Source of the DNA: Phenylobacterium sp.
GTDB taxonomy: Bacteria > Pseudomonadota > Alphaproteobacteria > Caulobacterales > Caulobacteraceae
Assembly: GCF_004799395.1 (NCBI RefSeq)
Contig: NZ_SSMZ01000262.1
Span: 1-33,605, forward strand
DNA: 33,605 nt
Direction of reading: 5' to 3'
Shown: positions 14,692-33,525 of the stretch, one piece after another
How the letters are laid out: every line of letters begins with the position of its first letter
Position numbering within the stretch: the stretch's first letter is position 1
Position numbers and translations under genes: made by a program
Notes under the pieces: model-generated
Databases searched by the model: none
What the model saw: the letters and a program-made list of their open reading frames with translations, nothing else
Told to the model about the DNA's origin: nothing

Positions 14692-15552
14692 ATGGCCAGC
14701 GATGTCACCGCTCCGATCCTATCTCCCGAGATGGACGCCACGGCGGCCGACGCCGGAACGCCGGCGCGGATTTCGACCACCCTTAGCTACGGGCTGTGCC
14801 TGCTGCTGGTGGCGGCTGCCGGTCTCGTGGCCTTCGTGGTCGATCACCTCGTGTCGACGCCAAACCTGTCCCTGATCTTCGTCCTGCCGGTGATCGTGGC
14901 GGCGCTCAGCTTTGGCTGGGGGCCGGCGCTGATCTCGGCCATGCTCAGCGTCGCCATCGACGACTTCTTCTTCATCGAGCCGCGCTTCACCTTCCGGGTC
15001 GCCAGTCCGTCGGATGTCTGGGCCCTGGCGCTGCTGCTGGTGGTGGCCGCCATCGCCAGCACGGTAGGCGCCCAATCGCGCAGCCGCGCGCTGGCGGCCC
15101 GCCGCGCGGCGCAGCAGGCCGAGGCGCTGCACAGCCTTGCCCACGCGGTCATCGAGGCCGAGCCTCCGTCCGCCCTGCTGAAGACCGCGGCTGCGGCGCT
15201 CAGCCGGATTTTCGACGCCCCGGCGGTGGTCCTGGCCGAGAAGTCCGGGAAGCTCTGGCCGGCCGCCGCGGGCGGCGGCGCCACCCTCTCCGCGGCGGAC
15301 GAGGAAGCCGCGCATTGGGCGTTGGCCAATGACAAGCCGACGCGCGGCGAGACCTACCCCTTCGATCAGGCGACCTTCGACTTCTGGCCCGTGCAGACGC
15401 CGGCAAGCCACCGCCTAGTGCTGGGCGTGAGGCTGGAGGACGCGTTCGGCGGCCGACCGAAAAACCCCAGCCGGCAGGTGGAGCTGGTAGCCGCCTATCT
15501 CTCGGCCGCCACGGCGCGCGCGGCGGACGCAAAGCGGACCGCACGGTCCTAG
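14692..15552 (+). CDS. Kinase-less KdpD-like sensor: DUF4118 membrane domain plus GAF-like domain
   Basis: A 286-residue protein with a four-helix DUF4118 membrane domain (about residues 30-125) containing SLIFVLPVIVAALSFGWGP and FFFIEPRFTF, then a linker helix and a GAF-like domain ending near residue 280. Both parts align in order with the centre of KdpD encoded at 24551-27241 (NLAMIFLLSVLGAGLAFG, FFFLEPRLSF, then a WTFWPLQ segment matching FDFWPVQ here). The N-terminal KdpD/USP domains and the histidine kinase are absent; no H-box or ATP-binding motif is seen. The start is ATG at 14692, decided by the strong aaaggagg 5 bases upstream; another ATG lies at 14671. It may be a membrane sensor without output, or a partner of KdpD; that is inference. 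Confidence 0.88.
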   Translation: MASDVTAPILSPEMDATAADAGTPARISTTLSYGLCLLLVAAAGLVAFVVDHLVSTPNLSLIFVLPVIVAALSFGWGPALISAMLSVAIDDFFFIEPRFTFRVASPSDVWALALLLVVAAIASTVGAQSRSRALAARRAAQQAEALHSLAHAVIEAEPPSALLKTAAAALSRIFDAPAVVLAEKSGKLWPAAAGGGATLSAADEEAAHWALANDKPTRGETYPFDQATFDFWPVQTPASHRLVLGVRLEDAFGGRPKNPSRQVELVAAYLSAATARAADAKRTARS

Positions 15553-15569
15553 GCGCCAAGACAGCGCCT
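15551..15569. terminator. Candidate hairpin between convergent genes
   Basis: AGGCGC (15551-15556) and GCGCCT (15564-15569) form a 6-bp stem with a 7-base loop, starting in the stop codon of the DUF4118 gene and facing the winged-helix gene. There is no T-run, so the call is weak. Confidence 0.35.
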
Positions 15570-15589
15570 CACCCGATCGGCTCAGCCGC

Positions 15590-16060
15590 TTACCGGTCGT
15601 CCTTGGCGTAGAACTGCAAGGTGCGCACGAACTGGTCGATGTCGGCGACGTAGAGCCGGAACGCGTCGAAGATGTTCAGATCGAAGAAGGCCGAGATCGG
15701 AATGTAGATGTTCTTGGTCTTCTCCGAGACCGCCACGTAGCCCAGATCGGTCAGGGCCTTGACCTTGCGGCGCACCGTCTCGCGCGGGATGCCGGAGGCG
15801 TCGGAGATGCCGAACAGCGAGACGCCGATTGAGGCGGACTCCAGATAGATCTGCTCGATCGAGTCTCGATCCGACGAGGCGCCGCCAAGGTTCAGAATGG
15901 CCTGGAAACAGGCTTCCACGACCACGAAGAAGATCATCACCATCTCGTAGTCATAGGCGAAGATCTCGGCAAAGCGGCGAGTGGTGCGGGTGAATTGGCG
16001 GATCGAGAAATAGAGTTCCAAGCGCGTGAGCACCGAGATATCCGCGTTGGGATCGTCCAT
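15590..16060 (-). CDS. Winged helix-turn-helix transcriptional regulator
   Basis: A 156-residue protein, probably cytoplasmic. The C-terminal half carries a winged helix: SLFGISDASGIPRETVRRKV as the helix-turn-helix, followed by KALTDLGYVAVSEKTKNIYI as the wing. The N-terminal half is helical and aromatic-rich (FAEIFAYDYEMVMIFFVVVE) and may dimerise. I do not recognise a named subfamily; MarR- or Crp-type HTH domains are the nearest by pattern. The ATG at 16060 (MDDPNADIS) is chosen over a longer open frame whose added residues look non-coding. It converges on the DUF4118 gene and follows the TetR gene on the same strand by about 150 bases. The target is unknown. Confidence 0.82.
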   Translation of the reverse strand: MDDPNADISVLTRLELYFSIRQFTRTTRRFAEIFAYDYEMVMIFFVVVEACFQAILNLGGASSDRDSIEQIYLESASIGVSLFGISDASGIPRETVRRKVKALTDLGYVAVSEKTKNIYIPISAFFDLNIFDAFRLYVADIDQFVRTLQFYAKDDR

Positions 16061-16161
16061 GTCACACCTGGCTGGGCGCCGGTCCTGAAAGCGAGACCCC
16101 ATCTTGCAGACGCCGCCCGAGATGGCCAGGGCGCAGGCGTTGGCGGGGTCGGCGCCCGTGC

Positions 16162-16178
16162 TGGGCGGGCTTCGCCCA
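16162..16178. terminator. Weak hairpin downstream of the TetR-family gene
   Basis: TGGGCG (16162-16167) pairs with CGCCCA (16173-16178) across a 5-base loop, 32 bases after the TetR stop on the minus strand. There is no T-run. The rest of 16061-16209 holds nothing I can identify. Confidence 0.28.
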
Positions 16179-16209
16179 ATACGGCGGCGCAACCGCTGGG
16201 CGCGAAGAC

Positions 16210-16863: not shown

Positions 16864-16907
16864 GAGTCCTCCTTTCTGCGCCGCGAAGAGAGGGCGGCGA
16901 TCGCCGT

Positions 16908-18629
16908 CTAGAAGTGGAAGATGATGTCGCCGGAGAGCACGGCCTCGGTCTTCTTGTTCGGCGCGATGCCGGCGAAGCCGTCGCCGTTGAAGGCCGGCTT
17001 GCTCGCCCAATAGTAGGTGACTTCGGGCCGCAGCTCGATCTGCGGGCTCAACCAATGCTGCAGGCCGATCCCTAGGTCTTCGTAGACCGCCGCGACGCCG
17101 GTCCTTTGGCCCACCGTGTCATCGAACCATTCCGTCCGCAGGGAGATGTTGTCGCGCGGGGTCGGCTGGTAGTTCCAGTAGGCGAGCACCGCATAGGTGT
17201 TCGAGCGGCAGGAGAGGGCCGCCGCGTCCCGGCACTGCGCGCCGTCGGGTGCGTTGAACGGGACATATTGCGGCGAGAACGGAGTGCCGCCGTTGGCGAT
17301 CGCCGTTGCGGCTATCGGATTGTTGACGTTCGGAACGTTGTTTTCAAATGTATCGTACGCTTCGAACGAAACATGGAATTTATCGTTGAATTTGTGATAG
17401 TAAGTAAATCCATACCACTGAAGATTATTGTATCCCCAGGATCCTTTATTGATGCCGTCTGCACAGAAGTAAGCATTGTCATGACCTGAATTGCTTTGGA
17501 AGCGCGCGCAGGCCGTCAGTGACGGCGTAGCGCCCGGATCCTTCAGCATCGTGGTCTCGGGGAACAGCGGATTGGGGTCCGGGTTCGGAATCTTCGTACC
17601 CACATGCCAGATCGCGGCCTCAGTTCCGACGTTCACACCGAGCTGCAGCATGACGTTCTTGTTGACCGCCAGCGTCCCCTGGATCCCCTCGTTGGTGTAG
17701 TTGTCGAAAGAATAGCCCATCGAGTGCGAGTACATGTAGTTGTTCGGTGCGAGCTGCGCCTCGATGTCCGGCACGGAGATGTACCGCCCGACGCGGATCA
17801 TCAGGCCGTCGGCGACTTGGGGAATGTAGAGCTCCCCGTAGACCATCGGGAAATCATAGCCGTAGGTGTCGTTGCGCTTGAGGAGCTGGTAGCTCGCGAC
17901 GCCGTAGGAGGTGGTGTAGCGGTAGTCGGTCCCGTATATGGCTGACAGCCTGAACCCCCAGTCGACGTGATCGGTCTGCACAGTGTCAGGCGCGCGCTCC
18001 AGATAGATCACGGCTTGGTCCATCTGCACCGTGTTCGGGGTGAAGTCGTAGGCCGCGGGCGCATTGCCGAACTTGCGGCTGCTGGTGCTGAGGTTGCCAC
18101 CCACGTCCACCCAGCCGTAGGCTTGGATGCCTTCGCTTGCCATCGCCTTGCCAAGCCCGGTCGGCGCGATCGCCACCATCAGGGGGCTGTCCACGGAGGC
18201 GGTGCGGTTGTTGCCGATCAGTGTGCTCGCGCCATAAGGCCAGTCGGTGAACGGCATGGGCGGGGCGCTCTGCGGCGGCGCGGTCCAGCCCTCCTTTGTC
18301 GAGGCCGGGGCCTTGGGGTCGGTCGGCGCCCCCGCCTGACCCCATTCGGCGCCATAGTATTTGATGAAGCGCTCGACGGGATTGGTCCCGATCGCGGCAT
18401 TGACCGCATCGACCGTATATGTCGACGGCATAGCGGCGTCGGTATCGACCGCGTGCGATCCCGCCGAGAGCGCAGCGGCCGCATTCGCCGGCGGCGCTGG
18501 GTCGGCTCTCGCGGCGTCCGCGACCGCGCCGATTGCAAAGGCCGTCGCCAAGGCCGCAAGGCTGCTCGCGCCCCGACAGAAACGCTCGGCCTTCGCCTGC
18601 GACTTCGGCTCGTCTTTCAAGTTCAACAT
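16908..18629 (-). CDS. Outer-membrane beta-barrel porin-like protein (BBP2/OmpL-like)
   Basis: A 573-residue outer-membrane protein. The N-terminus has a long signal region (ASSLAALATAFAIGAVADAA, cleavage probably after ARA). The body is rich in alternating aromatic and polar residues (GWVDVGGNLSTSS, YGWVDV, MVYGELYIPQVADGLMIRVG) and the protein ends in FHF, the C-terminal aromatic typical of assembled barrels. It resembles putative beta-barrel porin-2 proteins; the solute is unknown. The central segment at about 17330-17500 is much richer in A and T than the rest, so its origin may be mosaic. The start is ATG at 18629 with a weak gagg upstream. The TetR gene follows by 44 bases. The upstream intergenic region is long and AT-rich. 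Confidence 0.85.
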   Translation of the reverse strand: MLNLKDEPKSQAKAERFCRGASSLAALATAFAIGAVADAARADPAPPANAAAALSAGSHAVDTDAAMPSTYTVDAVNAAIGTNPVERFIKYYGAEWGQAGAPTDPKAPASTKEGWTAPPQSAPPMPFTDWPYGASTLIGNNRTASVDSPLMVAIAPTGLGKAMASEGIQAYGWVDVGGNLSTSSRKFGNAPAAYDFTPNTVQMDQAVIYLERAPDTVQTDHVDWGFRLSAIYGTDYRYTTSYGVASYQLLKRNDTYGYDFPMVYGELYIPQVADGLMIRVGRYISVPDIEAQLAPNNYMYSHSMGYSFDNYTNEGIQGTLAVNKNVMLQLGVNVGTEAAIWHVGTKIPNPDPNPLFPETTMLKDPGATPSLTACARFQSNSGHDNAYFCADGINKGSWGYNNLQWYGFTYYHKFNDKFHVSFEAYDTFENNVPNVNNPIAATAIANGGTPFSPQYVPFNAPDGAQCRDAAALSCRSNTYAVLAYWNYQPTPRDNISLRTEWFDDTVGQRTGVAAVYEDLGIGLQHWLSPQIELRPEVTYYWASKPAFNGDGFAGIAPNKKTEAVLSGDIIFHF

Positions 18630-18844
18630 AGATTTTCACGCCTCTGTAATTGCGCCGCCGAGCACAGCCGCGGCGCTGATTGAGCCGGGTTGAATCCCGG
18701 CGTCACCCGATGGCTTGGGTTGGCGGCCACACCTCGTTCGGTTCGCACCGCCTCAGCTCAGTCCTCGCCACACCCGTAAAGAGGGTGGCGATTGCCTTAG
18801 ACTATAGCTGCCCATTTTGGTGCGGCGGGAATAGGCGAGAGGCC

Positions 18845-18861
18845 CATAAAGGAACAATGAG
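18845..18861 (-). promoter_or_regulatory. Candidate KdpE-like direct repeat upstream of the porin
   Basis: On the minus strand the sequence reads CTCATT-GTTCC-TTTATG: two TTTATA-like hexamers separated by 5 bases, as in the kdp promoter and upstream of the TonB receptor. It is the weakest of the three copies and lies 216 bases before the porin start. Confidence 0.25.
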
Positions 18862-18994
18862 GTCTTTACCCACACCTCGTAAGGGAGCCATAAGCAAACG
18901 ATCTAAAGTGTAATTATTACCGTAATTTAGTGGATTTCTGGGACGTCGGCGCCGGGGTTGTTCTTGAGTCCTACCTTACGGCATAGTGGGCGTT

Positions 18995-19014
18995 AATGAC
19001 CCATTATGGGTATT
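18995..19014. promoter_or_regulatory. 20-bp near-perfect palindrome, likely operator
   Basis: AATGACCCATTATGGGTATT has perfect ACCCAT/ATGGGT arms around a single T and AAT/ATT outer ends, with one mismatch pair. It lies 50 bases before the start of the small secreted protein gene. The symmetry fits a dimeric regulator; the TetR and winged-helix proteins nearby are possible binders (inference). Confidence 0.5.
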
Positions 19015-19063
19015 GAAAGCCTCGGGACTTGCGAGGCCCTCTGAGCCAAGAAGGAACTACGCT

Positions 19064-19471: not shown

Positions 19472-19517
19472 CCCGCGAGCGAGCCGCACCCACCCCCTCC
19501 CGGGGCGCGGCTTGGGA

Positions 19518-19550: not shown

Positions 19551-19581
19551 GTTGGCCTTGGCAACCGCGCGCCGCGGCGAC

Positions 19582-20295
19582 CTAGGCGCCGGAGTGGCGG
19601 ATCGCCTCGTCGACCATCAGCCGATAGCCAATCCCGGGCAGGGTGCGGATCAACTTGGGCGCGGAGGGATCAGCCTCGATCTTCTGGCGAAGCTGGCCAA
19701 TGAACACGCGCAGGTACTGCATGTCCTGTCCGTGCGCCGGCCCCCAGAGCGAGATCAGCAATTCCTTGTGGGTCAGCACCTTGCCGTCCGCTTCCGCGAG
19801 TTTGATGAGTAGCTCATATTCCTTCGGGGACAGGTGGACCGGCTCGCCGGCGCGACTGACCAGCCGGCGCGGAATGTCGATGGTGAGGTCGCCGCTCTGC
19901 ACGATGGCCGGCGACGCGTCGGTCTGCCGGGCGTGGCGGCGGATAATCACCCGGAGGCGCGCCAGGAGCTCGCCCACCCGGAATGGCTTTTCGACATAGT
20001 CGTCGGCGCCAGAGTCGAGCGCCTCGATCTTCTCCATCTCCCGGTCACGGGCCGATAGAATGACGACCGGGCCATCGTAGAATTCACGCGCCTTGCGGAG
20101 CACCTCCTGCCCATCGATGTCGGGGAGCCCGAGGTCGAGCACGACGGCGTCCGGCGGGCGCCGCGCGATCTCCGCCAGGGCCTGGCGGCCGTTGTCCGCG
20201 CGGGCCGGCTCATAGCCGGCGGCGTTGAGCGCAGGACCCAGGAACCGATGGATCTGCGGCTCATCATCGACGACCAGGATTCGCAGCTTATGCAT
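19582..20295 (-). CDS. Orphan KdpE-type response regulator (OmpR family)
   Basis: A 237-residue OmpR-family regulator. The receiver domain has the acidic pocket VVDDE (8-12), phosphoacceptor Asp54 in VLDLGLPDIDG, the ILSARD switch region and the EKPF lysine. The C-terminal winged helix includes HLSPKEYELLIKL and YLRVFIGQLRQKIEADPS, a signature shared with KdpE. It is closely similar along its whole length to the KdpE at 23832-24554, including IHRFL, KAREFY and LLISLWGPAHG, so they are paralogues. No sensor kinase is adjacent. The ATG at 20295 follows a ggagg site. It is divergent from the small gene at 20552. Whether KdpD phosphorylates it is unknown. Confidence 0.93.
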   Translation of the reverse strand: MHKLRILVVDDEPQIHRFLGPALNAAGYEPARADNGRQALAEIARRPPDAVVLDLGLPDIDGQEVLRKAREFYDGPVVILSARDREMEKIEALDSGADDYVEKPFRVGELLARLRVIIRRHARQTDASPAIVQSGDLTIDIPRRLVSRAGEPVHLSPKEYELLIKLAEADGKVLTHKELLISLWGPAHGQDMQYLRVFIGQLRQKIEADPSAPKLIRTLPGIGYRLMVDEAIRHSGA

Positions 20296-20551
20296 GCGCC
20301 TCCGGCGGGTTCGCGGCGGGAATGGCGACCGGCATCTCGGACCAACCTCGCGCATCCATGGCAAGGTCTCTGATACGGTCTGCGCAGCTAAGGAGACCAT
20401 TCGGAATCGGCCCGAAAGAGATCAGCATTTCATAAAGATGCGCCCCGAGAGGTGAGCCACGCGCCCGTCCGGCGTCCGTGCGCCGCCACAAATCCCCGAT
20501 TGCCTTGATGTCTCGCTTACGGCGGCCGCTGCTGATCCGAATGGAGGTCTT
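20296..20551. other. Divergent intergenic region (orphan KdpE / small conserved gene)
   Basis: These 256 bases should hold both promoters. The only candidate site I see is a weak KdpE-like arrangement on the minus strand at 20420-20436 (TTTATG-AAATG-CTGATC). Ribosome-binding sites ggagg lie before each gene. Confidence 0.35.
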
Positions 20552-21055
20552 ATGCGCCCGCGTGGGACATTGGGACGGGTCGGAGCTGGGCTCCATCTGT
20601 TGAGGGCGTCCATGCCGAAATCCGCAGCGCGCTGCACCTCCCGGGCCGCCATGCTCACCACCCTACTTGATGGGGCCGGGATCACCCGGTCGAGCGTCAT
20701 CCGGGTGACGGGAGACGGCGCGCTCGCAGGTCTCCTTTGGCTTCGTCGGCACGGCTATGAGGGTGTCGGCTATGGCTGGTCGGGGGCGAACGCGCCGCGC
20801 CTTGAGCCGGACGCCGTCCTCGTCGCCCACACCTGCGACGAGATCACGCTCAAGCGCCTCCTGGCCGTCGGCCGGCAAGTGCGTCCCGGCGGCGTCTTCG
20901 TCTTTCAGCACCGCCTGGAATCCGAAGGCTGCGCGCTGGGGATCGAGTGGCTGCTCGACCAGGCCGGCTTCATCACGGAACGGCGCCTCAACGGCGCCCG
21001 CCGAGCGCTGATCATCGCGCGCCGCCGCGATTCTGCGATGTGCAAGGCTGCGTGA
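20552..21055 (+). CDS. Conserved small protein, paralogue of the 32291 gene (degenerate methyltransferase-like?)
   Basis: A 167-residue protein without signal peptide. The core reads SSVIRVTGDGALAGLLWLRR, HGYEGVGY, PDAVLVAHTCDE, LRxxGG-like VRPGGVFVFQ, and ends with LIIARRR. It matches the protein at 32291-32755 over about 125 residues, notably IRVTG, RHGYE and VAHTCDE. The order of blocks resembles a shortened SAM-dependent methyltransferase (glycine-rich loop, acidic turn, post-loop RPGG), but the classic motif is degenerate, so catalysis is doubtful. The ATG at 20552 has atggaggt upstream; ATG at 20612 with gaggg is closer to the paralogue's length. It is divergent from the orphan KdpE, just as its paralogue is divergent from the kdp operon. 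Confidence 0.75.
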   Translation: MRPRGTLGRVGAGLHLLRASMPKSAARCTSRAAMLTTLLDGAGITRSSVIRVTGDGALAGLLWLRRHGYEGVGYGWSGANAPRLEPDAVLVAHTCDEITLKRLLAVGRQVRPGGVFVFQHRLESEGCALGIEWLLDQAGFITERRLNGARRALIIARRRDSAMCKAA

Positions 21056-21209: not shown

Positions 21210-21229
21210 ACCGGCGGCGCGGCGGGTCG

Positions 21230-23720: not shown

Positions 23721-23772
23721 CGGCGGTATCAGGGGGGTGCGTCAGGGTTCCATTCGTGTCCGTGCAAGGAGT

Positions 23773-23789
23773 GATAAACGGAACATAAG
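23773..23789 (-). promoter_or_regulatory. Candidate KdpE-like direct repeat upstream of the TonB receptor
   Basis: On the minus strand this reads CTTATG-TTCCG-TTTATC, two TTTATA-like hexamers 11 bases apart. It lies 86 bases before the receptor start, nearly the same distance as the kdp site from its first gene. KdpE of E. coli binds head-to-tail repeats of this type (family knowledge). Binding here is inference. Confidence 0.4.
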
Positions 23790-23831
23790 GCGCCCGATCT
23801 CATTGCCTTCGGCTGAGGCCGGCCGGCGTTT

Positions 23832-24554
23832 TCATGCCTGCGGCAGGATCCGGAACATGTCGTCGGTGACGAAGCGGTAGCCGATCCCAGGCTCGGTCAT
23901 GATCACCTGCGGCTCGGAGGGGTCGCCCTCGATCTTCTGCCGCAGCTGGCCGATGAAGACCCGCAGGTACTGAGTGTCCTCGACGTGCGCCGGTCCCCAG
24001 ATCGAAATCAGCAGGTCGCGGTGCTGCATCACCTTGCCGGCGTTCTGCGCCAGCTTGGCTAGGAGGTCGTATTCCTTGGGCGACAGGTGCACGAGTTCGT
24101 CGCCCTTGGTGACCAGACGCCGCGGAAAATCGATCGTCAGCGTGCCCGATTTCACGATGGGCGGCGGCGGCTCGCCGGCGTGAAGGCGCTGTCGCAAGGC
24201 CGCGCGAAGCCTCGCCAGCAATTCGCCGACGCCGAAGGGCTTTTCCACATAGTCGTTTGCGCCGTTGTCCAGCGCGTCGATCTTCTCGGTCTCCCGGTCG
24301 CGGGCCGACAGGATGATGATCGGCTCGTGATAGAATTCGCGGGCCTTGATCAGGACCTGGCGTCCGTCCATGTCCGGCAGCCCAAGGTCGAGGACCACGG
24401 CGTCCGGCGCGGCGCGGGCGATCTCCCGCAGGCCTTCGGCGCCGGTGTCGGCCCGCAGCGGCTCGAACCCGGCGGCCTCCAGCGCCGCGCGCAGGAAGCG
24501 ATGGATCTGAGCCTCGTCGTCGATGACCAGGACGCGAGGGTGGTGCGCACTCAT
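23832..24554 (-). CDS. kdpE: KdpE, potassium-limitation response regulator
   Basis: A 240-residue OmpR-family response regulator. The receiver domain shows VIDDE (10-14), phosphoacceptor Asp56 in VLDLGLPDMDG, ILSARD and EKPF. The winged-helix output domain contains HLSPKEYDLLAKL and YLRVFIGQLRQKIEGDPS, as in KdpE. It activates kdpFABC when phosphorylated by KdpD (family knowledge). The ATG at 24554 overlaps the kdpD stop as ATGA, so the sensor and regulator are translationally coupled at the end of the kdp operon. It has a close paralogue at 19582-20295. Its adjacency to kdpD identifies this copy as the cognate regulator. Confidence 0.95.
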   Translation of the reverse strand: MSAHHPRVLVIDDEAQIHRFLRAALEAAGFEPLRADTGAEGLREIARAAPDAVVLDLGLPDMDGRQVLIKAREFYHEPIIILSARDRETEKIDALDNGANDYVEKPFGVGELLARLRAALRQRLHAGEPPPPIVKSGTLTIDFPRRLVTKGDELVHLSPKEYDLLAKLAQNAGKVMQHRDLLISIWGPAHVEDTQYLRVFIGQLRQKIEGDPSEPQVIMTEPGIGYRFVTDDMFRILPQA

Positions 24555-27241
24555 GGGGTGATCTCAGGCCTCTGCGGCGATTTCGGCAGGCTGATCAACA
24601 CACGAGTGCCGTGATCGCCGTGGATCGGGCTGGCGGCCGCGATCCGTCCGCCCATGGCCTCGATGAAGCCCTTCGAGATCGACAGGCCGAGCCCTGCGCC
24701 CTTGGTCCGGTCGGTCGGCTCCTCCATGCGGCGGAACTTCTCGAACACGCGTTCCAGCTCCGCGGTGGGGATGCCCTTGCCCTCGTCCTCGATACTGATA
24801 ACCACGTTGTTGCGGTCCTCATAGGCGGCCAGATCGATCGCCGTGTCGTCGGGACTGTAGGCGATGGCGTTTTCCAGGATGTTGACCACAGCCTGCTCCA
24901 ACAGGTTCGGGTCAAGCCTGACCGGCGGCAGGTCCGGCGGGAAGTCCCGCTCGATATGTCGTTTTCCAAGTCGGCGCGAGACCCGTTCCGCGGCGCCCAT
25001 CAGCACGTCGCGGACGTCGATCCAATCTTCGCGGATATTCAAGCCGCCGCCTTCAAGCCGTGTCATGTCCAGGAGGTTGCCGACATAGCGGTTGAGGCGT
25101 TCGGCCTCCTCGCGGACGCTCTGCAGCAGGTCGGCGCGGGTGGCCGGCGGCATGCCTTCGCCATATTCGATCATGGTGGTGGTCGAGCCCAGCACCGTCG
25201 AGAGCGGCGTACGCAGGTCGTGGCTGATGGAGTTCAGCAGGGCGGCGCGGAAGCGATCCGAGCGGCGCAGGGTCTCCGCCTCGACGGCGGCGAGCGCCAG
25301 GTCGGCGCGCTCCAGGGCGACCGCGCCCTGGTCGAGCAGCGCCAGGACCAGCTTCTCCTCGTCCGAACCGGGCCTCAGCATGTTGGCCTCCACGCCGGCG
25401 ACGCCAACGCGGTTGCGCACCCCCTGCAGCGGCCAGAAGGTCCAGCTGGTCTGCGGCAGGGTGCCGGTCCCGGAGCCGGCCGCCTCGCCCTTCTCCCAGG
25501 CCCAGCGGGCGGCGGCCATGGCGGCGGCGCCCAGGTCTTCGAGCACGGGGGCGCCGGCCACCGGCACGATCTCCTCGCCCTGCGGCAGCAGCACGATGGC
25601 CTTGGCGTTTCCGGCGGCGGAGATCTGGTCGGCCAGGGCGTGGGCGGTGTCGTCACGGGTCGCGGACCCCGAAAGCCGTCGGCTCGACGCCAGCAATGCG
25701 GCGATCGCCGAGGCCCGGGCCGAGGTCCTCAGGGACTGGTCGCGGACGCGTCCGGTCAGCCAGCCGGTGGTCATGGCCACCACGAAGAAGACCGCGAAGG
25801 TCAGCACATCGGTGGGATGGCCAATCACGAAGGACAGGCGCGGCTCGAGGAAGAAGAAGTTGTAGGCGAGCGCCGCGGCGGCTGCGGCGGTGACCGCCGG
25901 CCAGAGGCCGAACGCCAGGCCCGCGCCCAGCACGCTCAGCAGGAAGATCATCGCCAGGTTGGCGCCCGTGGCGAACTGGTCGAGCAGGCCGGCGATGGCG
26001 CCGGTGACCGCCACGAGGACCAGGGCGCCGGCGTGGCCGCGCCAGCCGGCAAGGCTGAACGGCGGCATGTCCACCAGAGGCGCCTTGCCGTCGTCCACCC
26101 CACGCTCGGTGACCACGTGGACCGCGGCGCCTCGCGCCTGGCGCAGCAGCGCCGTGGCCAGGGTGCGCCCGAGCAGCTCGCGCAGGCGGCTGTCGCGCGA
26201 CTTGCCGATCACGATCTGGGTGACGTTGTTGCGCCGCGCATAAGCCATCACCGAGGCCACCACGTCATCGCCGGTCAGCACGACCGTCGATCCGCCCAAC
26301 TGCTCAGCCAGCTTCAGCGCCTCGCTGAGCCGGCCTTGAGCCGCCGGCGAAGGCGGTTTCTGATTGGGGCGCTCGACGTGGGCGACAGTCCAGGGCGCGT
26401 CCATCATCATGTCCGAGAGGCGCCGGGCCGTGCGCACCAGGGCGCTCGCCATGGCGTCGCCGCCGACCAGGACAACGATGCGCTCGCCGGCCGCCCACGG
26501 GCCCTCGACGCCTTTCTCTCGCATGGTGGCGATCAGCTGATCGTCGACGGTCTGGGCCATGCGGCGTAGCGCGAGTTCGCGCAGCGCCGTGAGGTTCTCG
26601 GGCTTGAAGAAGTTGTCCGCCGCGAGCCGGGCGGTCTCAGGCACATAGACCTTGCCGTCGGCCAGCCGTGCGCGAAGCTCATCCGGCGTGATGTCGACGA
26701 GCTCGATGTCGTCGGCGCGGGACAGAGCCGAGTCCGGAACGGTTTCGCGCTGGCGCACGCCGGTGATGCGCAGCACCACGTCCACCAGGCTTTCCAGGTG
26801 CTGGACGTTCAGCGTGGTCCAGATGTCGATGCCGGCGCCCAGCAGCTCTTCGACATCCTGCCAGCGTTTTGGGTGGCGCGAGCCTGGCGCGTTGGAGTGG
26901 GCGTACTCGTCGACGATCAGCAGCTTCGGCCGGCGAGCGAGCGCACCGTCGATGTCGAACTCCATGAGGGTCCGAGCTTTGTACTCGATGGGTTTGCGCG
27001 GCAGCACCTCCAGGCCGCGCAGCAGGGCCTCGGTCTCGCGCCGACCGTGGCTTTCGACGACGCCGATCACGACGTCGTCGCCCTCGGCCTTGCGTCGCCT
27101 GGCGGTGCGCAGCATCTCGTAGGTCTTGCCTACGCCCGGCGCCATGCCGAGAAACACCTTGAGGCGCCCGCGCCGCGCCTTGTTGGCGGCGGCGAGGAGC
27201 GCCTCGGGGTCAGGCCGGCGCGGTTCGTCGGTGGTCGTCAT
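24551..27241 (-). CDS. kdpD: KdpD, potassium/turgor sensor histidine kinase
   Basis: An 896-residue sensor kinase of normal length. The N-terminal KdpD domain has the Walker A motif GMAPGVGKT at 32-40 and VDEYAHSNAPGSRHPKRW further on. A universal-stress-like domain (IVVLVGGDAMASALVRTARR) follows, then the four-span DUF4118 region with FFFLEPRLSF, a GAF-like domain, the phospho-acceptor His near 674 in SISHDLRTPLS, the N box NILENAIAYSP, DEGKGIP and GLGLSISKG. It phosphorylates KdpE under K+ limitation (family knowledge). The ATG at 27241 has gggag 5 bases upstream and is preferred to an earlier start at 27268. It lies 43 bases after kdpC and overlaps kdpE by 4 bases. Confidence 0.96.
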   Translation of the reverse strand: MTTTDEPRRPDPEALLAAANKARRGRLKVFLGMAPGVGKTYEMLRTARRRKAEGDDVVIGVVESHGRRETEALLRGLEVLPRKPIEYKARTLMEFDIDGALARRPKLLIVDEYAHSNAPGSRHPKRWQDVEELLGAGIDIWTTLNVQHLESLVDVVLRITGVRQRETVPDSALSRADDIELVDITPDELRARLADGKVYVPETARLAADNFFKPENLTALRELALRRMAQTVDDQLIATMREKGVEGPWAAGERIVVLVGGDAMASALVRTARRLSDMMMDAPWTVAHVERPNQKPPSPAAQGRLSEALKLAEQLGGSTVVLTGDDVVASVMAYARRNNVTQIVIGKSRDSRLRELLGRTLATALLRQARGAAVHVVTERGVDDGKAPLVDMPPFSLAGWRGHAGALVLVAVTGAIAGLLDQFATGANLAMIFLLSVLGAGLAFGLWPAVTAAAAAALAYNFFFLEPRLSFVIGHPTDVLTFAVFFVVAMTTGWLTGRVRDQSLRTSARASAIAALLASSRRLSGSATRDDTAHALADQISAAGNAKAIVLLPQGEEIVPVAGAPVLEDLGAAAMAAARWAWEKGEAAGSGTGTLPQTSWTFWPLQGVRNRVGVAGVEANMLRPGSDEEKLVLALLDQGAVALERADLALAAVEAETLRRSDRFRAALLNSISHDLRTPLSTVLGSTTTMIEYGEGMPPATRADLLQSVREEAERLNRYVGNLLDMTRLEGGGLNIREDWIDVRDVLMGAAERVSRRLGKRHIERDFPPDLPPVRLDPNLLEQAVVNILENAIAYSPDDTAIDLAAYEDRNNVVISIEDEGKGIPTAELERVFEKFRRMEEPTDRTKGAGLGLSISKGFIEAMGGRIAAASPIHGDHGTRVLISLPKSPQRPEITP

Positions 27242-27284
27242 CGCCGCTCCCGCATGTCGGCGCCTCAATCTCGACGTCCATGGG

Positions 27285-27878
27285 CTAGCTGGCCGGCGGT
27301 GTGGGACGAGCCGGAGCCGCCGCGTCCAGCGCGAGATTGGTCTTTAGCACGTTGACGTGCGGTTGGCCGAAGATCCCCAGCCAGGCGTCGGTCGTGTTGG
27401 CGGCGATCGCGCGCTCGACCTCGCCCACCGGGACGCCCCGGGCCGCCGCGACCCGAGCCGCCTGGCGATGGGCGTTGGCGGGCGAGATGTCGGGATCCAG
27501 GCCCGAACCCGAGGTGGTGACCGCGTCGGCCGGAACGGGACCGGCGCCCTCGCTCTGCAGTCCCGCTGTGTCCTTGGCGATGCGCTTGGCCAGATCGGGA
27601 TTGAGCGGGCCCAGGTTCGAGCCGGAGGAGTTGGAGGCGTCGTAGCCGTCGTTGCCGGCCGCCGACGGACGCGGATGCAGATACTGTGGCTTGGCGAAGT
27701 TCTGGGCGATCAGCGAGGAGCCGATCACCTGGCCCTTGGCGTCGCGGATCAGGCTGCCGCCGGCCTGGGCCGGGAAGGCCACATGGGCGATGCCGGTGAT
27801 GACCAGCGGATAGATCACGCCGAGCAGCAGGGTGAAGAACAGGGTGGCGACGATGGCGGGACGGATTTGGGCGAACAT
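27285..27878 (-). CDS. kdpC: KdpC, potassium-transporting ATPase subunit C
   Basis: A 197-residue subunit with one N-terminal membrane span (residues 6-30, IVATLFFTLLLGVIYPLVIT) and a periplasmic domain. Conserved blocks are GSSLIAQNFAKPQYLHPRPS, LDPDISPANAHRQAARVA and NTTDAWLGIFGQPHVNVL. KdpC stabilises KdpA-KdpB and may help capture K+ (family knowledge). The ATG at 27878 has taggag 6 bases upstream. The C-terminal tail after NLALD is a short Ala/Pro extension. It follows a small unidentified frame instead of directly following kdpB, which is unusual. Confidence 0.96.
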   Translation of the reverse strand: MFAQIRPAIVATLFFTLLLGVIYPLVITGIAHVAFPAQAGGSLIRDAKGQVIGSSLIAQNFAKPQYLHPRPSAAGNDGYDASNSSGSNLGPLNPDLAKRIAKDTAGLQSEGAGPVPADAVTTSGSGLDPDISPANAHRQAARVAAARGVPVGEVERAIAANTTDAWLGIFGQPHVNVLKTNLALDAAAPARPTPPAS

Positions 27879-27887
27879 GGCGGGCTC

Positions 27888-28070
27888 CTAGAACGTCGCC
27901 TTGAGGGGGACCGCGACGCTGGCGCGTTCGGCAGGCTTGGAAGTCGGCGGCGGGCGCCGGGGGGGCCCCGGGGCACGGGGGGTGGCGTCCGCCGCCTCCG
28001 CCGCGCGGGGCTGAGCGCGCGCGAGCAGAAGTGAGGGTTTGATCAGCGGAATGAACGACGGGGTCATCAC
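27888..28070 (-). CDS. Small hypothetical ORF between kdpB and kdpC
   Basis: A 60-codon frame starting at GTG 28070, overlapping the kdpB stop as GTGA (ATG at 28067 is an alternative start), and ending 9 bases before the kdpC start. It reads [20 protein letters not shown], then a Pro/Arg/Ala-rich middle and VAVPLKATF at the end. Third-codon positions are mostly G or C. There is no membrane span or recognised domain. Its position, filling the gap exactly with a coupled start, argues for translation, but the low-complexity composition argues for caution. Confidence 0.45.
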
Positions 28071-30130
28071 GCCAGACCCACGCTGGAGACGATGATGTCG
28101 ATCAGCTTGATACCGATGAAGGGCACGATAACCCCACCGATGCCGTAGATCAGCAGGTTGCGCTGCAGGAGCCGGCCGGCGCCGATCGCCTGATACTTCA
28201 CCCCGCGAAGCGCCAGCGGGATCAGGGCGACGATCACCAGGGCGTTGAAGATCACCGCCGACAGGATGGCGCTCTTCGGGCTGTGCAGGCCCATGATGTT
28301 GAGCGCGCCCAAGGCCGGCAGGGTCAGGACGAACAGCGCCGGGATGATCGCGAAGTACTTGGCCACGTCGTTGGCGATGGAGAAGGTGGTGAGCGCGCCG
28401 CGAGTGATCAGCATCTGCTTACCCACCTCGACGATCTCGATGACCTTGGTCGGATCGCTATCCAGGTCGACCATGTTGCCGGCCTCGCGAGCGGCCTGGG
28501 CGCCGGTCTGCATGGCCACGCCGACGTCGGCTTGGGCGAGCGCCGGGGCGTCGTTGGCGCCGTCGCCGCACATGGCGACCAGGCGGCCGCGGCCTTGCTC
28601 GTCGCGCATCAGCCGCAACTTGTCCTCCGGCGTCGCCTCGGCCAGGAAGTCGTCGACGCCGGCTTCGGAGGCGATGGCCGCGGCGGTGACCGGATTGTCG
28701 CCGGTGATCATCACCGTACGAAGGCCCATGCGGCGCAGGTCGGCGAAACGCTCCTTCACGCCCGGCTTCACCACGTCTTTCAGATGGATGACCCCGAACA
28801 GGATGCCGTTCTCGGAGACCGCCAGGGGCGTGCCCCCCGAGCGGGCGATCCGGTCGACGGCGGCGGTGAATTCCGCGGGCGCCTGACTGGCTTCGAGCCC
28901 GGCGTCCTTGAGGACCGCATCGACGGCGCCCTTGCGCCACTTGCTGCCGTCGGCGTCCAGGCCGGACTGGCGGGTGGTGGCGCTGAACGGGATCACCGTG
29001 GCGCCCTTCGGCGCTTCCAGGACGAGGCCCTCGTTGCGGGCCAGTTCGACGATGGAACGGCCTTCCGGCGTCTCGTCGCCGAGCGAGGCCAGCAGGGTCG
29101 CGCGCAGCATCATCTCCGGGCGCACGCCCGGCGCGGCGATCAGCTCAGTGGCCATGCGGTTGCCGAAGGTGATGGTGCCGGTCTTGTCGAGCAGCAGGGT
29201 GTCGACGTCGCCGGCGGCCTCCACGGCGCGGCCGGAGGTGGCCAGAACGTTGAACTTCAGCAGCCGGTCCATGCCGGCGATGCCGACCGCCGAAAGCAGG
29301 CCGCCGATGGTGGTCGGGATCAGGCAGATGAAGAGCGCACCCAGCACCATCGGGTCGATCTTCACGCCGGAATAGGTGCCGAGCCCGAGCAGGGTCACCA
29401 CCGCGATCAGGAAGATCAGCGTCAGGCCGGCCAGCAGCACAGCGAGCGCGATCTCGTTCGGCGTCTTGCGGCGGTCCGCGCCCTCGACCATGGCGATCAT
29501 CCGATCGAGGAACGTCGAGCCGGCCTCGGAAGTGATACGCACCTTCAGCCAGTCGGACACCACGGTGGTGCCACCGGTCACGGCGGACCGGTCGCCGCCG
29601 CTCTCGCGGATCACCGGGGCGCTTTCGCCGGTGATGGCGGCCTCGTTGACCGAGGCGATGCCTTCTACGATCTCGCCGTCCGAGGGGACGACGTCGCCGG
29701 CCTCGACGAGGACGACGTGGCCGACCTTCAGCTCATTGGCCGGCGTGAGGACGACTGCGCCGGCGGCGTTGAGCAGCTTGGCCTTGGTGGTCACCCGCGT
29801 GGCCCGCAAGCTGTCGGCGGCGGCCTTGCCGCGGCCCTCAGCCACGCTCTCGGCGAGGTTGGCGAACAGCACGGTGGCCCAGAGCCAGAGCGCGATCTGT
29901 AGCGCGAAGGCCCAGTCTCCGCCGTCCTTGATCGCCAGGACCGTGGACATGGTCGCCAGGACTGCGACGATCCATGTGGCGAAGATCACCGGATTGCCGG
30001 TCAGCTTGCGCGGATCGAGCTTGACGAAGGAGTCGCGGGTCGCGCGGGCCAGGATCGGCCCCGAGAAGCTGCCGACAAGGGTTGCGGCCTTGCGGCGGCC
30101 TTCACCCAGAGGTGCGGTTGCGGTGGTCAT
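28067..30130 (-). CDS. kdpB: KdpB, potassium-transporting P-type ATPase subunit B
   Basis: A 687-residue P-type ATPase. TGES at 167-170 is in the actuator domain (its Ser is the inhibitory phosphorylation site in E. coli KdpB), the phosphorylated Asp315 is in [15 protein letters not shown] and [14 protein letters not shown] are in the nucleotide domain, and [19 protein letters not shown] is the hinge. It hydrolyses ATP to drive K+ entry through KdpA (family knowledge). The ATG at 30130 ([20 protein letters not shown]) has ggggatc upstream. A much longer open frame continues upstream, but that is an out-of-frame reading of kdpA. The stop overlaps a GTG start of the small ORF before kdpC. Confidence 0.97.
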
Positions 30131-30162
30131 GTGATGATCCCCAAAGCTTTCAACGGGGGGTT

Positions 30163-31875
30163 TCAGCGGGCCGCGGCGACGGCGTTGAGCACCTGGAAGT
30201 GCTCGACGATCGGGCCGAGGGCGAGGGCGGGGAAGTACTGCAGGCCGCCCATGATCAGGATCACCCCGATCAGCAGGCCGATGAACAGCGGCCCGTCCGT
30301 GGGGAACGTGCCGGCAGTGGCGCCCAGCTTGGGCTTCATCGCCATGGAGCCGGCGATGGCCAGCACCGGAATGGCATAGGCGAAGCGGCCCAACAGCATG
30401 GCGACGCCGAGCGTGGCGTTCCAATAGGGTGTGTTGGCCGAGAGGCCCGCGAAGGCCGAGCCGTTGTTCCCCGTGGCCGACGAGTAGGCGTAGAGGATCT
30501 CCGACAGGCCGTGCGGACCCGGATTGGCCAGGCCCTTCAGGGCCACCGGAACCACCGCGGCGACGCCGGCGAAGCCCAGGATCGAGACCGTCAGGATCAG
30601 CACCGCCAGCATGGCGTACTTCACCTCTCGCGCCTCGACCTTCTTGCCCAGGTATTCCGGCGTGCGTCCGACCATCAGGCCGGCCACGAAGACCGCGATG
30701 AGCGCCAGCACAATCATCCCGTAGAGGCCTGAACCGACGCCGCCGGGGACGATCTCGCCGAGCTGGATCATGAACATCGCCATGCCGCCGGCCAGCGGCA
30801 TGAAGCTGTCGTGCATGGCGTTGACGCCGCCGTCGGACGCGCCAGTGGTGGCCGCGACCCAGATCGCCGTCGAAGGCGCGCCGAAGCGGACCTCCTTGCC
30901 TTCCATGTTGACCGAGGCGTCGGCGTGGGCGGCGACCAGGGCCGGCGCGGGCTGGGTCTCGGCGGCGTAGACTACGGCTGCGGCGGTGAACACGAAGATC
31001 GCCATCACCGCCACCAGGGCGCGGGCGTCCTTGCGAGCCAGGACGATCCGCCCGAAGGCGACGGCGCAGGCGTAGCTGAGGACGTTCATGATCACGATCT
31101 CGATGAAGTTCGTGATCGCATTGGGGTTTTCGAACGGATGGGCGGAATTGACGTTGAACAGGCCGCCGCCGTTGGTGCCGAACTGCTTGATGGCTTCCTG
31201 GCTGGCGACGGGGAACAGGGCGATGGTCTGCTTGCCGCCTTCCACCGTGTGGGCGATGGCGTTGGCCGCCAGCGTCTGCGGCTCGCCCAACGCCACGAAG
31301 ACCAGGGCGATGACGATCGAGAACGGCAGCAGGATGTAGAGGCTGATCCGGGTCAGATCGACCCAGAAGTCGCCCAGGTTCTCGCTGCGGTTGGCGGCGA
31401 AGGCGCGCGCCAGGGCGGCGGCGACCGCGATGCCCGCGGCGGCCGAAAGGAAGTTGTGCGAGGTCAGCCCAGCCATCTGCGAGAAGGTCGAGAGCGTCGT
31501 CTCCGGCACATAGGACTGCCAGTTGGTGTTGGTGATGAAGCTGATCGCGGTGTTGAACGCCAGGTCCGGCGAGCAGCCGGGGAAGCCCTGCGGATTGAGC
31601 GGCAGGAAGTTCTGGAATCGCAGGATCAGGTACAGCACCACGAAGCTGGCGACGCTGAACGCCAGGAAGCTCATGGCGTAGGCGATCCAGTTCTGGCCCT
31701 TGTCGGGCTTCACGCCGCAGCCGGCGTAGACCAGCCGTTCGACGGGCTTCAGCACCGGGTCGAGCCAGGTCTTCTCGCCCTGCCAGACGCGGGCCATGTA
31801 GATGCCGAGCGGCCACGCGAGCGCGACCGTGACGGCGAGCGTAAGGGCGATCTCCGCCCAGCCCTGACCGTTCAT
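30163..31875 (-). CDS. kdpA: KdpA, potassium-binding channel-like subunit
   Basis: A 570-residue membrane protein with about ten spans, starting [20 protein letters not shown]. The four selectivity-filter loops are recognisable: [52 protein letters not shown] and [20 protein letters not shown]. KdpA forms the K+ pore of the KdpFABC pump at the inner membrane (family knowledge). The ATG at 31875 shares its A with the kdpF stop (TGATG). The gap to kdpB is 32 bases. Length and filter residues look intact. Confidence 0.97.
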
Positions 31876-31961
31876 CAGAACTTCTCCGGCTTTAGGAGGG
31901 CGACCACCATGTAGGCGCCGATGACGAGGGCGCCGACGCCCCAGATGATGTTTGCGAGCAT
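31875..31961 (-). CDS. kdpF: KdpF, small membrane subunit of the Kdp pump
   Basis: A 28-residue single-span peptide. It begins [19 protein letters not shown] and ends ALLKPEKF; the ending LL-x-PE-x-F is the KdpF hallmark. KdpF stabilises the KdpABC complex (family knowledge). Its stop overlaps the kdpA start by one base, and its ATG shares a base with the stop of the small peptide upstream. A longer in-frame reading to the left of the ATG is not supported. Confidence 0.92.
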
Positions 31962-32044
31962 CAGATGCGCCTCAGGCTGTAGGCGTAGGCCGCGAAGACC
32001 ACGAAGATGGCGACGCCGCCGAGAATGTAGAGGATGTCGAGCAT
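31961..32044 (-). CDS. 27-residue membrane peptide leading the kdp operon
   Basis: The frame encodes [20 protein letters not shown] followed by AYSLRRI: one hydrophobic span with a positively charged end. ATG 32044 has ggag 7 bases upstream (GGTGGAGCGGCCCA before the ATG), and the stop overlaps the kdpF start (TGATG). Both signs support real translation. I do not know a named family. Coupling to kdpF suggests an accessory or regulatory peptide of the pump (inference). Confidence 0.7.
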
Positions 32045-32116
32045 TGGGCCGCTCCACCGGAAAGCTAGAGGGGGAACCTACTAAGCCTGGGCGTAAGGAC
32101 GCCATGCGGAAGCACG

Positions 32117-32130
32117 TTGATCGATATCAA
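32117..32130. promoter_or_regulatory. Perfect FNR/FixK-type box
   Basis: TTGATCGATATCAA matches TTGAT-N4-ATCAA at all ten defined positions. This is the site of Crp/FNR-family oxygen or nitric-oxide regulators (FNR, FixK, Anr). Its centre is about 80 bases before the first codon of the kdp operon. No FNR-type gene is in the window. Confidence 0.6.
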
Positions 32131-32141
32131 GGAAGTATAAG
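32125..32141 (-). promoter_or_regulatory. Candidate KdpE binding site of the kdp operon
   Basis: On the minus strand this reads CTTATA-CTTCC-TTGATA: two hexamers like TTTATA in direct orientation, 11 bases apart. The layout resembles the E. coli kdp site (TTTATA and TTTACA with a 5-base spacer, from memory). It overlaps the FNR/FixK box by 6 bases, so both proteins may not bind together. Confidence 0.5.
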
Positions 32142-32290
32142 GGTTCTGCCAGCCGGGGCGCGAGCCCGATCCTTGACGTTTTGCTTATCCGGCGGGTCGT
32201 CTTCGGTATCGAACGCTTACGGCCGGCCGCGCGAAAATGCGGGCATTCCAGGAGGCGCCGTTCGCCCCCGACCATGGAGTTCCGAGTTCG

Positions 32291-32755
32291 ATGTCCCAAG
32301 AGCCGTCGCCCAAAGATTCGTCTTCCGGCCTGCTCAGCAGCGATCCCCTTATATCGCTGCTTGAGCGGGCGCACGTCACCAAATCGAGCCTGATCCGCGT
32401 GACCGGCTCCAGCGGCCTGTCGGCCATGCTCTGGCTTTGTCGGCACGGCTACGAACAGGTCGGCTATCTGCGTCCCGGCGCCGGCCCGCATGAGCAGCCC
32501 GACGCCCTGATCGTCGCCCACACCTGCGATGAAGCCACCCTGCAGAACCTGCTGCTCACGGGCCCCCACGTCCGCGAAGGCGGCGCGCTGGTGTTCCAGT
32601 CGCCCCTGCCCCGCGTGCTGGCCTTCCGCGCCGACCCCATCCACCGGCTCCTGAAAAGCTTCGGCTACGCGGTCGAGGAATGCCACCACGGCCAGCGGCG
32701 CGAGCTCCACGTGGCGCGCCGGCTTTACCAGGCGCCGCTGAAGCAGGCCGCCTGA
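32291..32755 (+). CDS. Conserved small protein divergent from kdp, paralogue of the 20552 gene
   Basis: A 154-residue protein without signal peptide or membrane span. Its core, SSLIRVTGSSGLSAMLWLCR, then HGYEQVGY, PDALIVAHTCDE, VREGGALVFQ and HVARRL at the end, matches the protein at 20552-21055 block by block. The pattern recalls a degenerate SAM-methyltransferase fold; I would not claim activity. The start is ATG at 32291; an in-frame ATG at 32237 exists but adds residues lacking in the paralogue. The first gene of a plus-strand operon, it is followed one base later by the next gene. Its promoter region is shared with kdp. Confidence 0.78.
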   Translation: MSQEPSPKDSSSGLLSSDPLISLLERAHVTKSSLIRVTGSSGLSAMLWLCRHGYEQVGYLRPGAGPHEQPDALIVAHTCDEATLQNLLLTGPHVREGGALVFQSPLPRVLAFRADPIHRLLKSFGYAVEECHHGQRRELHVARRLYQAPLKQAA

Positions 32756-32756
32756 G

Positions 32757-33116
32757 ATGATCCCGGCTTCCGATCTGTGGATGCTGGGCCTGCGGCCGGT
32801 CCGCAATGACGAGGACGACGCGGCGGCCGTGGGCGATGTTGTCCGCCCGGCGCGCTCGACGAAGTTCGTTGTCGACCAGCGGCTCGGCCGCTGGCGCGTG
32901 CAGCTGAACGATGAGGACGCGGGCGCCTTCGCCAGCCTGGACGACGCCGTGCGTTTCGCTTGCGGCCAGGCGCGCGAGCAGGCCAAGGCCGGGACCCTCG
33001 GCGTGGTGGTGGTGCAGTCCGAGGTCCAGGAAATGCACTGCTTCACCCCGCCGGCCGGGGCCTATGTCGCCCCGCCCGAACCCAAGCTGCGCGTGGTCGG
33101 AGGCGCGGGCCGATGA
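32757..33116 (+). CDS. Small hypothetical protein in the kdp-divergent operon
   Basis: A 119-residue protein, probably cytoplasmic. The middle reads KFVVDQRLGRWRVQLNDEDA, then FASLDDAVRFACGQAREQA and LGVVVVQSEVQEMHCF: strand, helix, strand, a layout like small DUF2188-type domains, without certain homology. The ATG at 32757 lies one base after the preceding stop, and its stop overlaps the next start as ATGA, so translation is coupled. No catalytic motif is seen. Confidence 0.75.
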   Translation: MIPASDLWMLGLRPVRNDEDDAAAVGDVVRPARSTKFVVDQRLGRWRVQLNDEDAGAFASLDDAVRFACGQAREQAKAGTLGVVVVQSEVQEMHCFTPPAGAYVAPPEPKLRVVGGAGR

Positions 33117-33307
33117 CGCCTCGCGCCTCCAGCTCCTACGAGGCCTGGTACGCCAGGCTCAAGGTCGCGCATCGCAGAGCCTTGGCCCGTCACTGGCCGC
33201 TGGTGCTGGTGGCTTTCGCCATCGCGATCGTCGTCGGCGTCCTGAGCCCTGACCGCAGCAAACCGCCCGCGTCCCCAGCGACCACGTCGGCGGAGTCGGT
33301 CAGATGA
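33113..33307 (+). CDS. Small single-span membrane protein
   Basis: A 64-residue protein. A basic N-terminal part (YARLKVAHRRALARHWP) precedes one membrane span (LVLVAFAIAIVVGVLS) and a short Ser/Pro tail. The ATG at 33113 overlaps the previous stop and the stop overlaps the next ATG, both as ATGA. The basic residues before the span predict an inside N-terminus. I do not recognise the family. Confidence 0.72.
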   Translation: MTPRASSSYEAWYARLKVAHRRALARHWPLVLVAFAIAIVVGVLSPDRSKPPASPATTSAESVR

Positions 33308-33525
33308 GGTCCCCTTCACAAGGACCGGCGCCGAGCCTGACCCGGAGCGACCTCTCGCCCTGCGATCGGTTCCTGGCCAGGCGCAGGGCCATCTTCCTGC
33401 GGGACTGGATCCTGGCGCTGATCGCCCTGGGTCTGGTCCTGGCGGCCACCCTTTTGCGCTCCGAGCCCCGTCATCCGGCGCCTGACGCGCCTCAGGCTGC
33501 GCACCCCGGCGCCCCGCAGATCTGA
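33304..33525 (+). CDS. Small single-span membrane protein
   Basis: A 73-residue protein similar in layout to the one before it: an Arg-rich stretch (RFLARRRAIFLRDW), one membrane span (ILALIALGLVLAATLL) and a Pro/Ala-rich periplasmic tail. It may be a distant duplicate of the preceding gene. The start overlaps the previous stop as ATGA. It is the last gene of the four-gene operon and converges on the efflux gene at the right edge with only 13 bases between them. Confidence 0.7.
   Translation: MRSPSQGPAPSLTRSDLSPCDRFLARRRAIFLRDWILALIALGLVLAATLLRSEPRHPAPDAPQAAHPGAPQI

Follow-up and report, generated by a model that had tools for sequence, protein, structure and literature searches.

A likely KdpE regulon island in Phenylobacterium with predicted outer-membrane pores, small proteins, and a KdpD half-sensor

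Introduction

The kinase/regulator pair KdpD-KdpE and the gene order kdpFABC are known from Escherichia coli, and both recur in the stretch of Phenylobacterium DNA analyzed here, which is the whole 33.6-kb contig C182 (NZ_SSMZ01000262.1) of genome G000 and is called the window in the following. For E. coli KdpE, the accessible part of one study gives the half-sites TTTATA-N5-TTTACA (PMC3264566). According to the available part of another study, kdpFABC was called the sole known KdpE target, to which adeP, uxaA, and uxaC have been added as direct targets, with 31 peaks in chromatin immunoprecipitation-exonuclease (ChIP-exo) analyses (PMC7657598). In Caulobacter crescentus, which also belongs to the Caulobacteraceae, kdpF precedes kdpA as in the window, kdpFABCDE is induced at low K+, and a second promoter is suspected to depend on KdpDE; the accessible part of that account makes no mention of porins, a KdpE box, a half-sensor, or a small gene (PMC8552747). 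Our literature search found no paper on a KdpE box, regulon, or motif, with most subscription papers and preprints being outside its coverage, and none on truncated DUF4118/KdpD proteins.

Compared with the E. coli targets described in the accessible part of the cited work (PMC7657598), the predicted KdpE boxes of the window also precede a second KdpE-type response regulator (RR2), a KdpD half-sensor without kinase, porins, and two genes of a new small protein family (smallA and smallB). The reading that this span is an island of an expanded KdpE regulon, which includes outer-membrane pores, small proteins, and a half-sensor, is well supported by sequence, and we consider it likely.

A first-pass annotation of the span had listed two KdpE-type regulators, a full KdpD, a KdpD-type sensor half without kinase, and two paralogous small proteins, each encoded divergently from a Kdp element, and had suggested a K+ circuit with unknown parts. 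All these genes are present as open frames where it had placed them. Pfam recovered both regulators and the full KdpD and found DUF4118 alone in the sensor half, smallA and smallB share 46% identity over 148 amino acids (aa; E 3e-36), and they diverge from RR2 and kdpA, respectively. The idea of a K+ circuit gained support as well, as the shared boxes and the recurrence of the small gene next to kdp in relatives make the dispersed parts look like one circuit. Features beyond that annotation are kdpF, a 27-aa open reading frame (ORF), a gene 1 nt after smallB, a BBP2 family porin, and a TonB-dependent receptor.

Results

Predicted KdpE boxes in the window

A box model was obtained by expectation-maximization, started from random seeds only, with 37 kdpA upstream regions of relatives, limited to sequence 180 bp or more upstream of kdpA. 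At these loci, among them that of the close relative G093, no small gene had been noted by the time the model was built; one of them, L165, turned out to contain a small gene. An earlier motif run with kdpF-containing upstreams, using two chosen seeds along with random ones, was rejected; its top motifs resembled kdpF coding sequence. The model converged on the 22-bp box atCTTTATGc.tCCcTTATGCc, in which a 5-bp spacer separates two 6-bp half-sites, a layout that matches the E. coli half-sites as given in the accessible part of the report (PMC3264566).

With this model, eight matches of at least 11 bits were found in the window, all of them outside called genes at a coding fraction of 89%, and oriented toward kdpF, RR2, smallA, smallB, the BBP2 porin gene (two matches), the TonB receptor gene, and the half-sensor gene (Table 1). 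Weaker second boxes tend to sit 32-33 bp further on. By chance, 0.27 such matches were expected in the window (100 Markov simulations), 200 column-shuffled models put the expectation at 0.4, with a maximum of 3, and a sample of the same genome, consisting of chosen rather than random contigs, contained 5 matches in 350,735 bases, corresponding to 0.48 expected in the window. No box of at least 11 bits was found at the genes of the first part of the window (~1-14 kb), which we take to be a hopanoid-type cluster from the families found there.

Predicted KdpE boxes in relatives, and porins

The boxes and their orientation, as well as their recurrence in relatives, were read directly from the DNA. 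A box of at least 11 bits within 420 bp was found at 28 of 35 small genes and 47 of 58 kdpA-like genes, and at 4 of 917 unlabelled genes. For the small family, counts and trees exclude repeated records of the same locus (e.g., L065, L068, L069, L072, and L200). The boxes of small genes mostly lie ~95-120 bp from the start. A strict pattern had seven exact matches in nine chosen genomes, six of them located upstream of kdpA and the seventh upstream of the G096 small gene, which lies ~500 kb away from the kdp operon of that genome. OmpR-family regulators commonly bind direct repeats of this kind, and the boxes might thus belong to another OmpR-type regulator, with an incidental kdp linkage. We regard this as quite improbable, since the model derives from kdpA promoters and fits the half-site layout of E. 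coli KdpE, and since the seven exact matches in nine genomes fall at kdpA and one small gene.

Boxes also recur before BBP2 porin genes, namely in the window, at L198 (30.3 bits), at L018 (23.1 bits; Pfam-tested), and on contig C84 of the same genome (23.3 bits). The box at L030 precedes a protein that is just 26% like BBP2, and that at L165 is 678 bp away from a BBP2 gene. Outer-membrane barrels are moreover found within kdp operons, between kdpB and kdpC or between kdpC and kdpD, and they belong to three Pfam families: BBP2 in L020 and L027 (Pfam-tested) and L166 (by similarity), a Gcw_chp/porin-like barrel in L064 (Pfam-tested) with similar ones in L168, L171, L177, L187, L190, and L195, and a Phenol_MetA_deg-type barrel in L182 and L170 (Pfam-tested). 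As differing barrel families occur at one operon, a route through the outer membrane seems to be needed, and the kdp-linked barrels may carry K+.

The second regulator and the origin of the gene set

RR2 consists of a receiver and an OmpR-type DNA-binding domain according to Pfam, shares 67% identity with the window KdpE over 232 aa, and is not encoded beside a KdpD. Its best NCBIfam model is that of KdpE, NF007820, with 224 bits; the window KdpE reaches 246 bits, and both are under the cutoff of 325 bits. Inspected by eye, RR2 and KdpE have both kept the stretch QYLRVFIGQLRQKIE of the DNA-binding domain and the phosphorylation residues, at what we take to be their positions. Given these shared residues, RR2 probably recognizes the same boxes as KdpE. 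On contig C14 of the same genome (L202), a KdpD-like protein of 516 aa (34% identity), without the KdpD N-terminal domain, is encoded beside a KdpE-like protein of 232 aa (53%), and the number of two KdpE-type regulators is therefore a local count.

The first-pass annotation had proposed that one sensor-regulator-partner set was duplicated and diverged. The mirrored divergent layouts of the KdpE pair (67%) and of the small pair (46%) would agree with a recent duplication within this genome, but trees of the regulators and of the small proteins contradicted recent paralogy. Among the 54 KdpE-type proteins of the regulator tree, RR2 was sister to the KdpE of SZAS-8 (support 99/82; 86% identity) and formed a 100/100 clade with the KdpE proteins from the kdp operons of SZAS-8 and G090, whereas the window KdpE clustered with those of Phenylobacterium G093, GW715, and G006 (100/99). 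In the small-protein tree, smallA fell together with a protein each from SZAS-8 and GW715, and smallB joined L061, L062, and the kdp-linked SZAS-8 protein; a sister grouping of smallA and smallB was rejected (p of the approximately unbiased test 0.00094; 32-row tree, three long-branch rows left out). As, in addition, one copy of a full KdpD (PF02702) and no second one was found in the genome, and the half-sensor is closest to half-sensors of other genomes, a recent duplication is highly improbable. In Phenylobacterium GW715 (L064), both small types are arranged in tandem, divergent from kdpA. Together with the separate clades, this tandem points to old lineages, each seen beside kdp, that were brought together in the window, be it by transfer or by differential loss.

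It is conceivable, if short of probable, that RR2, smallA, and some neighbors are left over from a second kdp operon or came from a lineage like SZAS-8 or G090, and that they simply lie close to the native kdp operon today, perhaps without a working role. The close relationship of RR2 to the KdpE proteins of these two agrees with such an origin, as do the occurrence of the nearest smallA relative in SZAS-8 and the presence of small and half-sensor genes in the kdp loci of SZAS-8/G090-like relatives. A lack of function would contrast with the intact frames and with the strong, correctly oriented boxes at RR2 and smallA. In any case, this account concerns origin and is compatible with an expanded KdpE regulon.

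The half-sensor

The ORF of the half-sensor contains, as an in-frame ATG, the start at 14692 given by the first-pass annotation. An alignment to the KdpD model spans residues 43-248, and the KdpD N-terminal and histidine kinase domains were not found by Pfam in this ORF (14671-15552). The remainder appears GAF-like, which is not a Pfam match. The protein is 70-71% identical to half-sensors beside kdp elsewhere and 41% identical over 74 aa to the window KdpD. Half-sensor genes with boxes of 11.8-17.1 bits occur at five loci, namely the window, L157, L030, L018 (a fragment), and L061, whose box extends into the called start. In genome G050, pieces of half-sensors lie at two contig ends, on C315 (L018) and C385 (L201); C315 has a box at the half-sensor piece as well as at a BBP2 porin gene and at a small gene, an accessory set without kdp on that contig.

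The small proteins and their partners

SmallA and smallB have no Pfam or NCBIfam match, and a profile search against PDB sequences gave no significant relative of the small protein (best E 0.031). An AlphaFold2 model had a confident core, with a mean predicted local distance difference test score (pLDDT) of 82, and most of the 50 best Foldseek rows were class I methyltransferases (3p9n, E 1.1e-5), at modest TM-scores by query length of at most 0.59 (3grz). The model thus suggests a Rossmann-like methyltransferase fold, which the small proteins would share with class I S-adenosylmethionine (SAM) methyltransferases such as RsmD and PrmA. Unlike these, they are shorter, lack a Pfam, NCBIfam, or PDB-sequence match, and have a SAM motif that looks degenerate by eye: measured against what we take to be the SAM motif, the glycine-rich part appears partial in the alignment, and strand 2 does not seem to be followed by the acidic residue.

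The small proteins could nevertheless be active methyltransferases, e.g., for RNA or protein, that are induced at low K+ and are not regulators. Besides the Foldseek result, SET-domain-like genes that adjoin some members would fit this alternative, which we consider unlikely in view of the short length, of the apparent absence, judged by eye, of the full glycine-rich motif and the post-strand-2 acidic residue, and of the lack of a significant PDB-sequence relative. SET-domain-like genes were seen near or adjoining small genes at L029, L030, L327, L329, and L025, with Pfam over the cutoff for L025 alone; at L030, the SET-like/small pair shares a single 23.3-bit box.

Two alanines form the C-terminus of 28 of 35 distinct small proteins, including both of the window, versus 53 of 1363 other genes, and the alanine codons vary. 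Such an end is described as a common ClpXP degron for CdnL of Caulobacter in the accessible part of the source (PMC11034885). The small proteins share this end with ClpXP substrates such as CdnL, and by this analogy they are probably short-lived.

In 14 of 35 cases, a gene on the same strand begins 1-4 nt after the small gene. This coupled gene varies and encodes a small protein with very weak DUF2188 likeness, a lone LysR-type ligand domain, or a membrane-like protein. Five coupled genes share a start like MI..SDLW.LGL (L064 10474, L066 10398, L063 8160, L069 10422, and window 32757), which is possibly a docking peptide, although the remaining parts differ and are of the LysR ligand domain, membrane-like, or partner type.

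Distribution of the small family and its kdp linkage

SmallA as a lone query retrieved no related loci, and alignment A1 retrieved 15. KdpA is present in 55 of 99 sampled Caulobacteraceae genomes. A single small-protein query matched 14 of the 99, and a 16-row profile matched 30 at E<=0.001 and 28 at E<=1e-10, with the borderline genomes G013 and G017, both without KdpA, being dropped. KdpA was found in 27 of these 28 strong genomes (in G050 counted from a fragment only) versus 28 of the 71 others (Fisher 6e-8, kinship not corrected).

Small genes and kdp genes are separated by no more than ~10 kb in the window, G070, G009, G061, G008, G027 (with kdpA on another contig), G090, and G062, and also in L061, L063, L064, and, by coordinates, G040, whose homologue, located on the kdp contig, is not among the called ORFs and was outside the box scoring. 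In other genomes, they lie elsewhere than kdp. The label "kdp-linked" was not clearly clustered on the small-protein tree (81 of 500 shuffles were equally low), indicating that kdp linkage of small genes comes and goes. At the level of the order, 28 of 398 genomes matched at E<=0.001, the strong ones all being Caulobacteraceae, and at the level of the class, 3 of 385 matched at E<=1e-5, including the genome of the window. One of the other two is G728, which belongs to a different family of the class; its distant homologue (E 4e-8), located at L322 9976-10311, is encoded directly beside kdpE of a complete kdpABCDE operon and has an 11.4-bit box.

Features of the window

Beyond ~14 kb, the gene order is half-sensor, TrmB-like, TetR-like, BBP2 porin, RR2, smallA, TonB receptor, kdpEDCBAF (minus strand), and smallB with its coupled gene (Table 1). 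The 27-aa micro-ORF before kdpF ends in LRRI or LRRV and was present in 44 of 44 kdpA upstreams examined with regular expressions, kdpF being recognized in 36 of the 44; the micro-ORF possibly encodes a second small Kdp subunit. KdpA-like proteins (53-55%) without adjoining kdpB were seen at L164, L192, and L198, and L198, like the window, carries TrmB-like, TetR, and BBP2 genes, the latter with the box listed above.

Table 1. Positions of genes and predicted KdpE boxes in the window
Feature	Position	Strand	Basis or remark
KdpE box, 11.8 bits, before half-sensor	14623..14644	+	box model
DUF4118 (KdpD membrane domain) half-sensor without kinase	14671..15552	+	Pfam DUF4118 alone; KdpD-model alignment
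BBP2 family outer-membrane porin	16908..18629	-	PF07642, 120.7 bits vs cutoff 26.2
KdpE box, 12.2 bits, second before BBP2	18843..18864	-	box model
KdpE box, 16.5 bits, before BBP2	18876..18897	-	box model
RR2, orphan KdpE-type response regulator	19582..20295	-	Pfam, NCBIfam, tree; ORF 19582-20400, likely start 20295
KdpE box, 17.2 bits, before RR2	20418..20439	-	box model
KdpE box, 17.1 bits, before smallA	20502..20523	+	box model
Weak second box, 6.2 bits, 33 bp on, before smallA	20535..20556	+	box model
smallA	20612..21055	+	start inferred from relatives; 20552 in first-pass annotation
TonB-dependent receptor	21270..23687	-	Pfam
KdpE box, 12.8 bits, before TonB receptor	23771..23792	-	box model
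KdpE	23832..24554	-	Pfam, NCBIfam, tree
KdpD, full length	24551..27268	-	KdpD, DUF4118, HisKA, HATPase domains; alternative ATG start 27241 possible
KdpC	27285..27878	-	family match
KdpB	28067..30130	-	family match
KdpA	30163..31875	-	family match
KdpF, 28 aa	31875..31961	-	PF09604
Conserved 27-aa hydrophobic micro-ORF before kdpF	31961..32044	-	without Pfam match
Second box, 8.4 bits, before kdpF	32090..32111	-	box model
KdpE box, 20.3 bits, before kdpF	32123..32144	-	box model
KdpE box, 14.9 bits, before smallB	32170..32191	+	box model
smallB	32291..32755	+	methyltransferase-fold-like family
Partner gene, 1 nt after smallB	32757..33116	+	in a relative, very weak resemblance to DUF2188 (E 0.14)

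Discussion

Several observations weigh against an expanded KdpE regulon in this span. The best match of a simulated window reached at least 13.9 bits in 5% of the 100 simulations, with a maximum of 16.4, and three boxes are therefore individually unsafe, namely those before the TonB receptor (12.8) and the half-sensor (11.8) as well as the second one of BBP2 (12.2); matches of 13.8-14.1 bits also fall within genes of the same genome elsewhere. Looser patterns gave no genome-wide excess over reversed controls (43 vs 44, and 30 vs 38 with at most one mismatch), so that only exact or high-scoring matches are informative. In a later set of small genes, 5 of 12 had a box of at least 11 bits, four of these coming from the already sampled genus g22, and six divergent Caulobacteraceae genes of the set had none at this threshold, which means that the box link is not universal in the small family; the two-alanine end was found in 7 of these 12 later proteins. 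The half-sensors of L063 and L204 have no box of their own of at least 10.5 bits, and G093, the closest kdp relative, has no small gene.

For the expanded regulon, which we still favor, the following course of events can be envisaged. When K+ is scarce, KdpD would phosphorylate KdpE and perhaps RR2 as well, and the phosphorylated regulator would bind the 22-bp boxes, which are often tandem. Binding would turn on kdpFABCDE, RR2, both small genes, the half-sensor, the BBP2 porin, and the TonB receptor, and the porin and the receptor could let K+ reach the inner-membrane pump. The small protein may serve as a short-lived, catalytically degenerate adaptor with methyltransferase fold and a ClpXP-type two-alanine end, which would act as a regulator in feedback on the Kdp system, with the coupled downstream gene possibly providing a helper.

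Tentatively, we go a step further and imagine a two-membrane, multi-regulator K+ response in the Caulobacteraceae, in which KdpE recurrently targets a labile adaptor with a non-catalytic methyltransferase fold that feeds back on Kdp, complemented by a half-sensor and KdpE-controlled pores. According to the accessible part of the pertinent study, the targets of E. coli KdpE come down to essentially one operon (PMC7657598), with which an expanded regulon would contrast. If it holds true, a KdpE regulon with outer-membrane barrels would address the passage of K+ across the outer membrane under limitation, and it would give an uncharacterized small protein family a concrete physiological setting.

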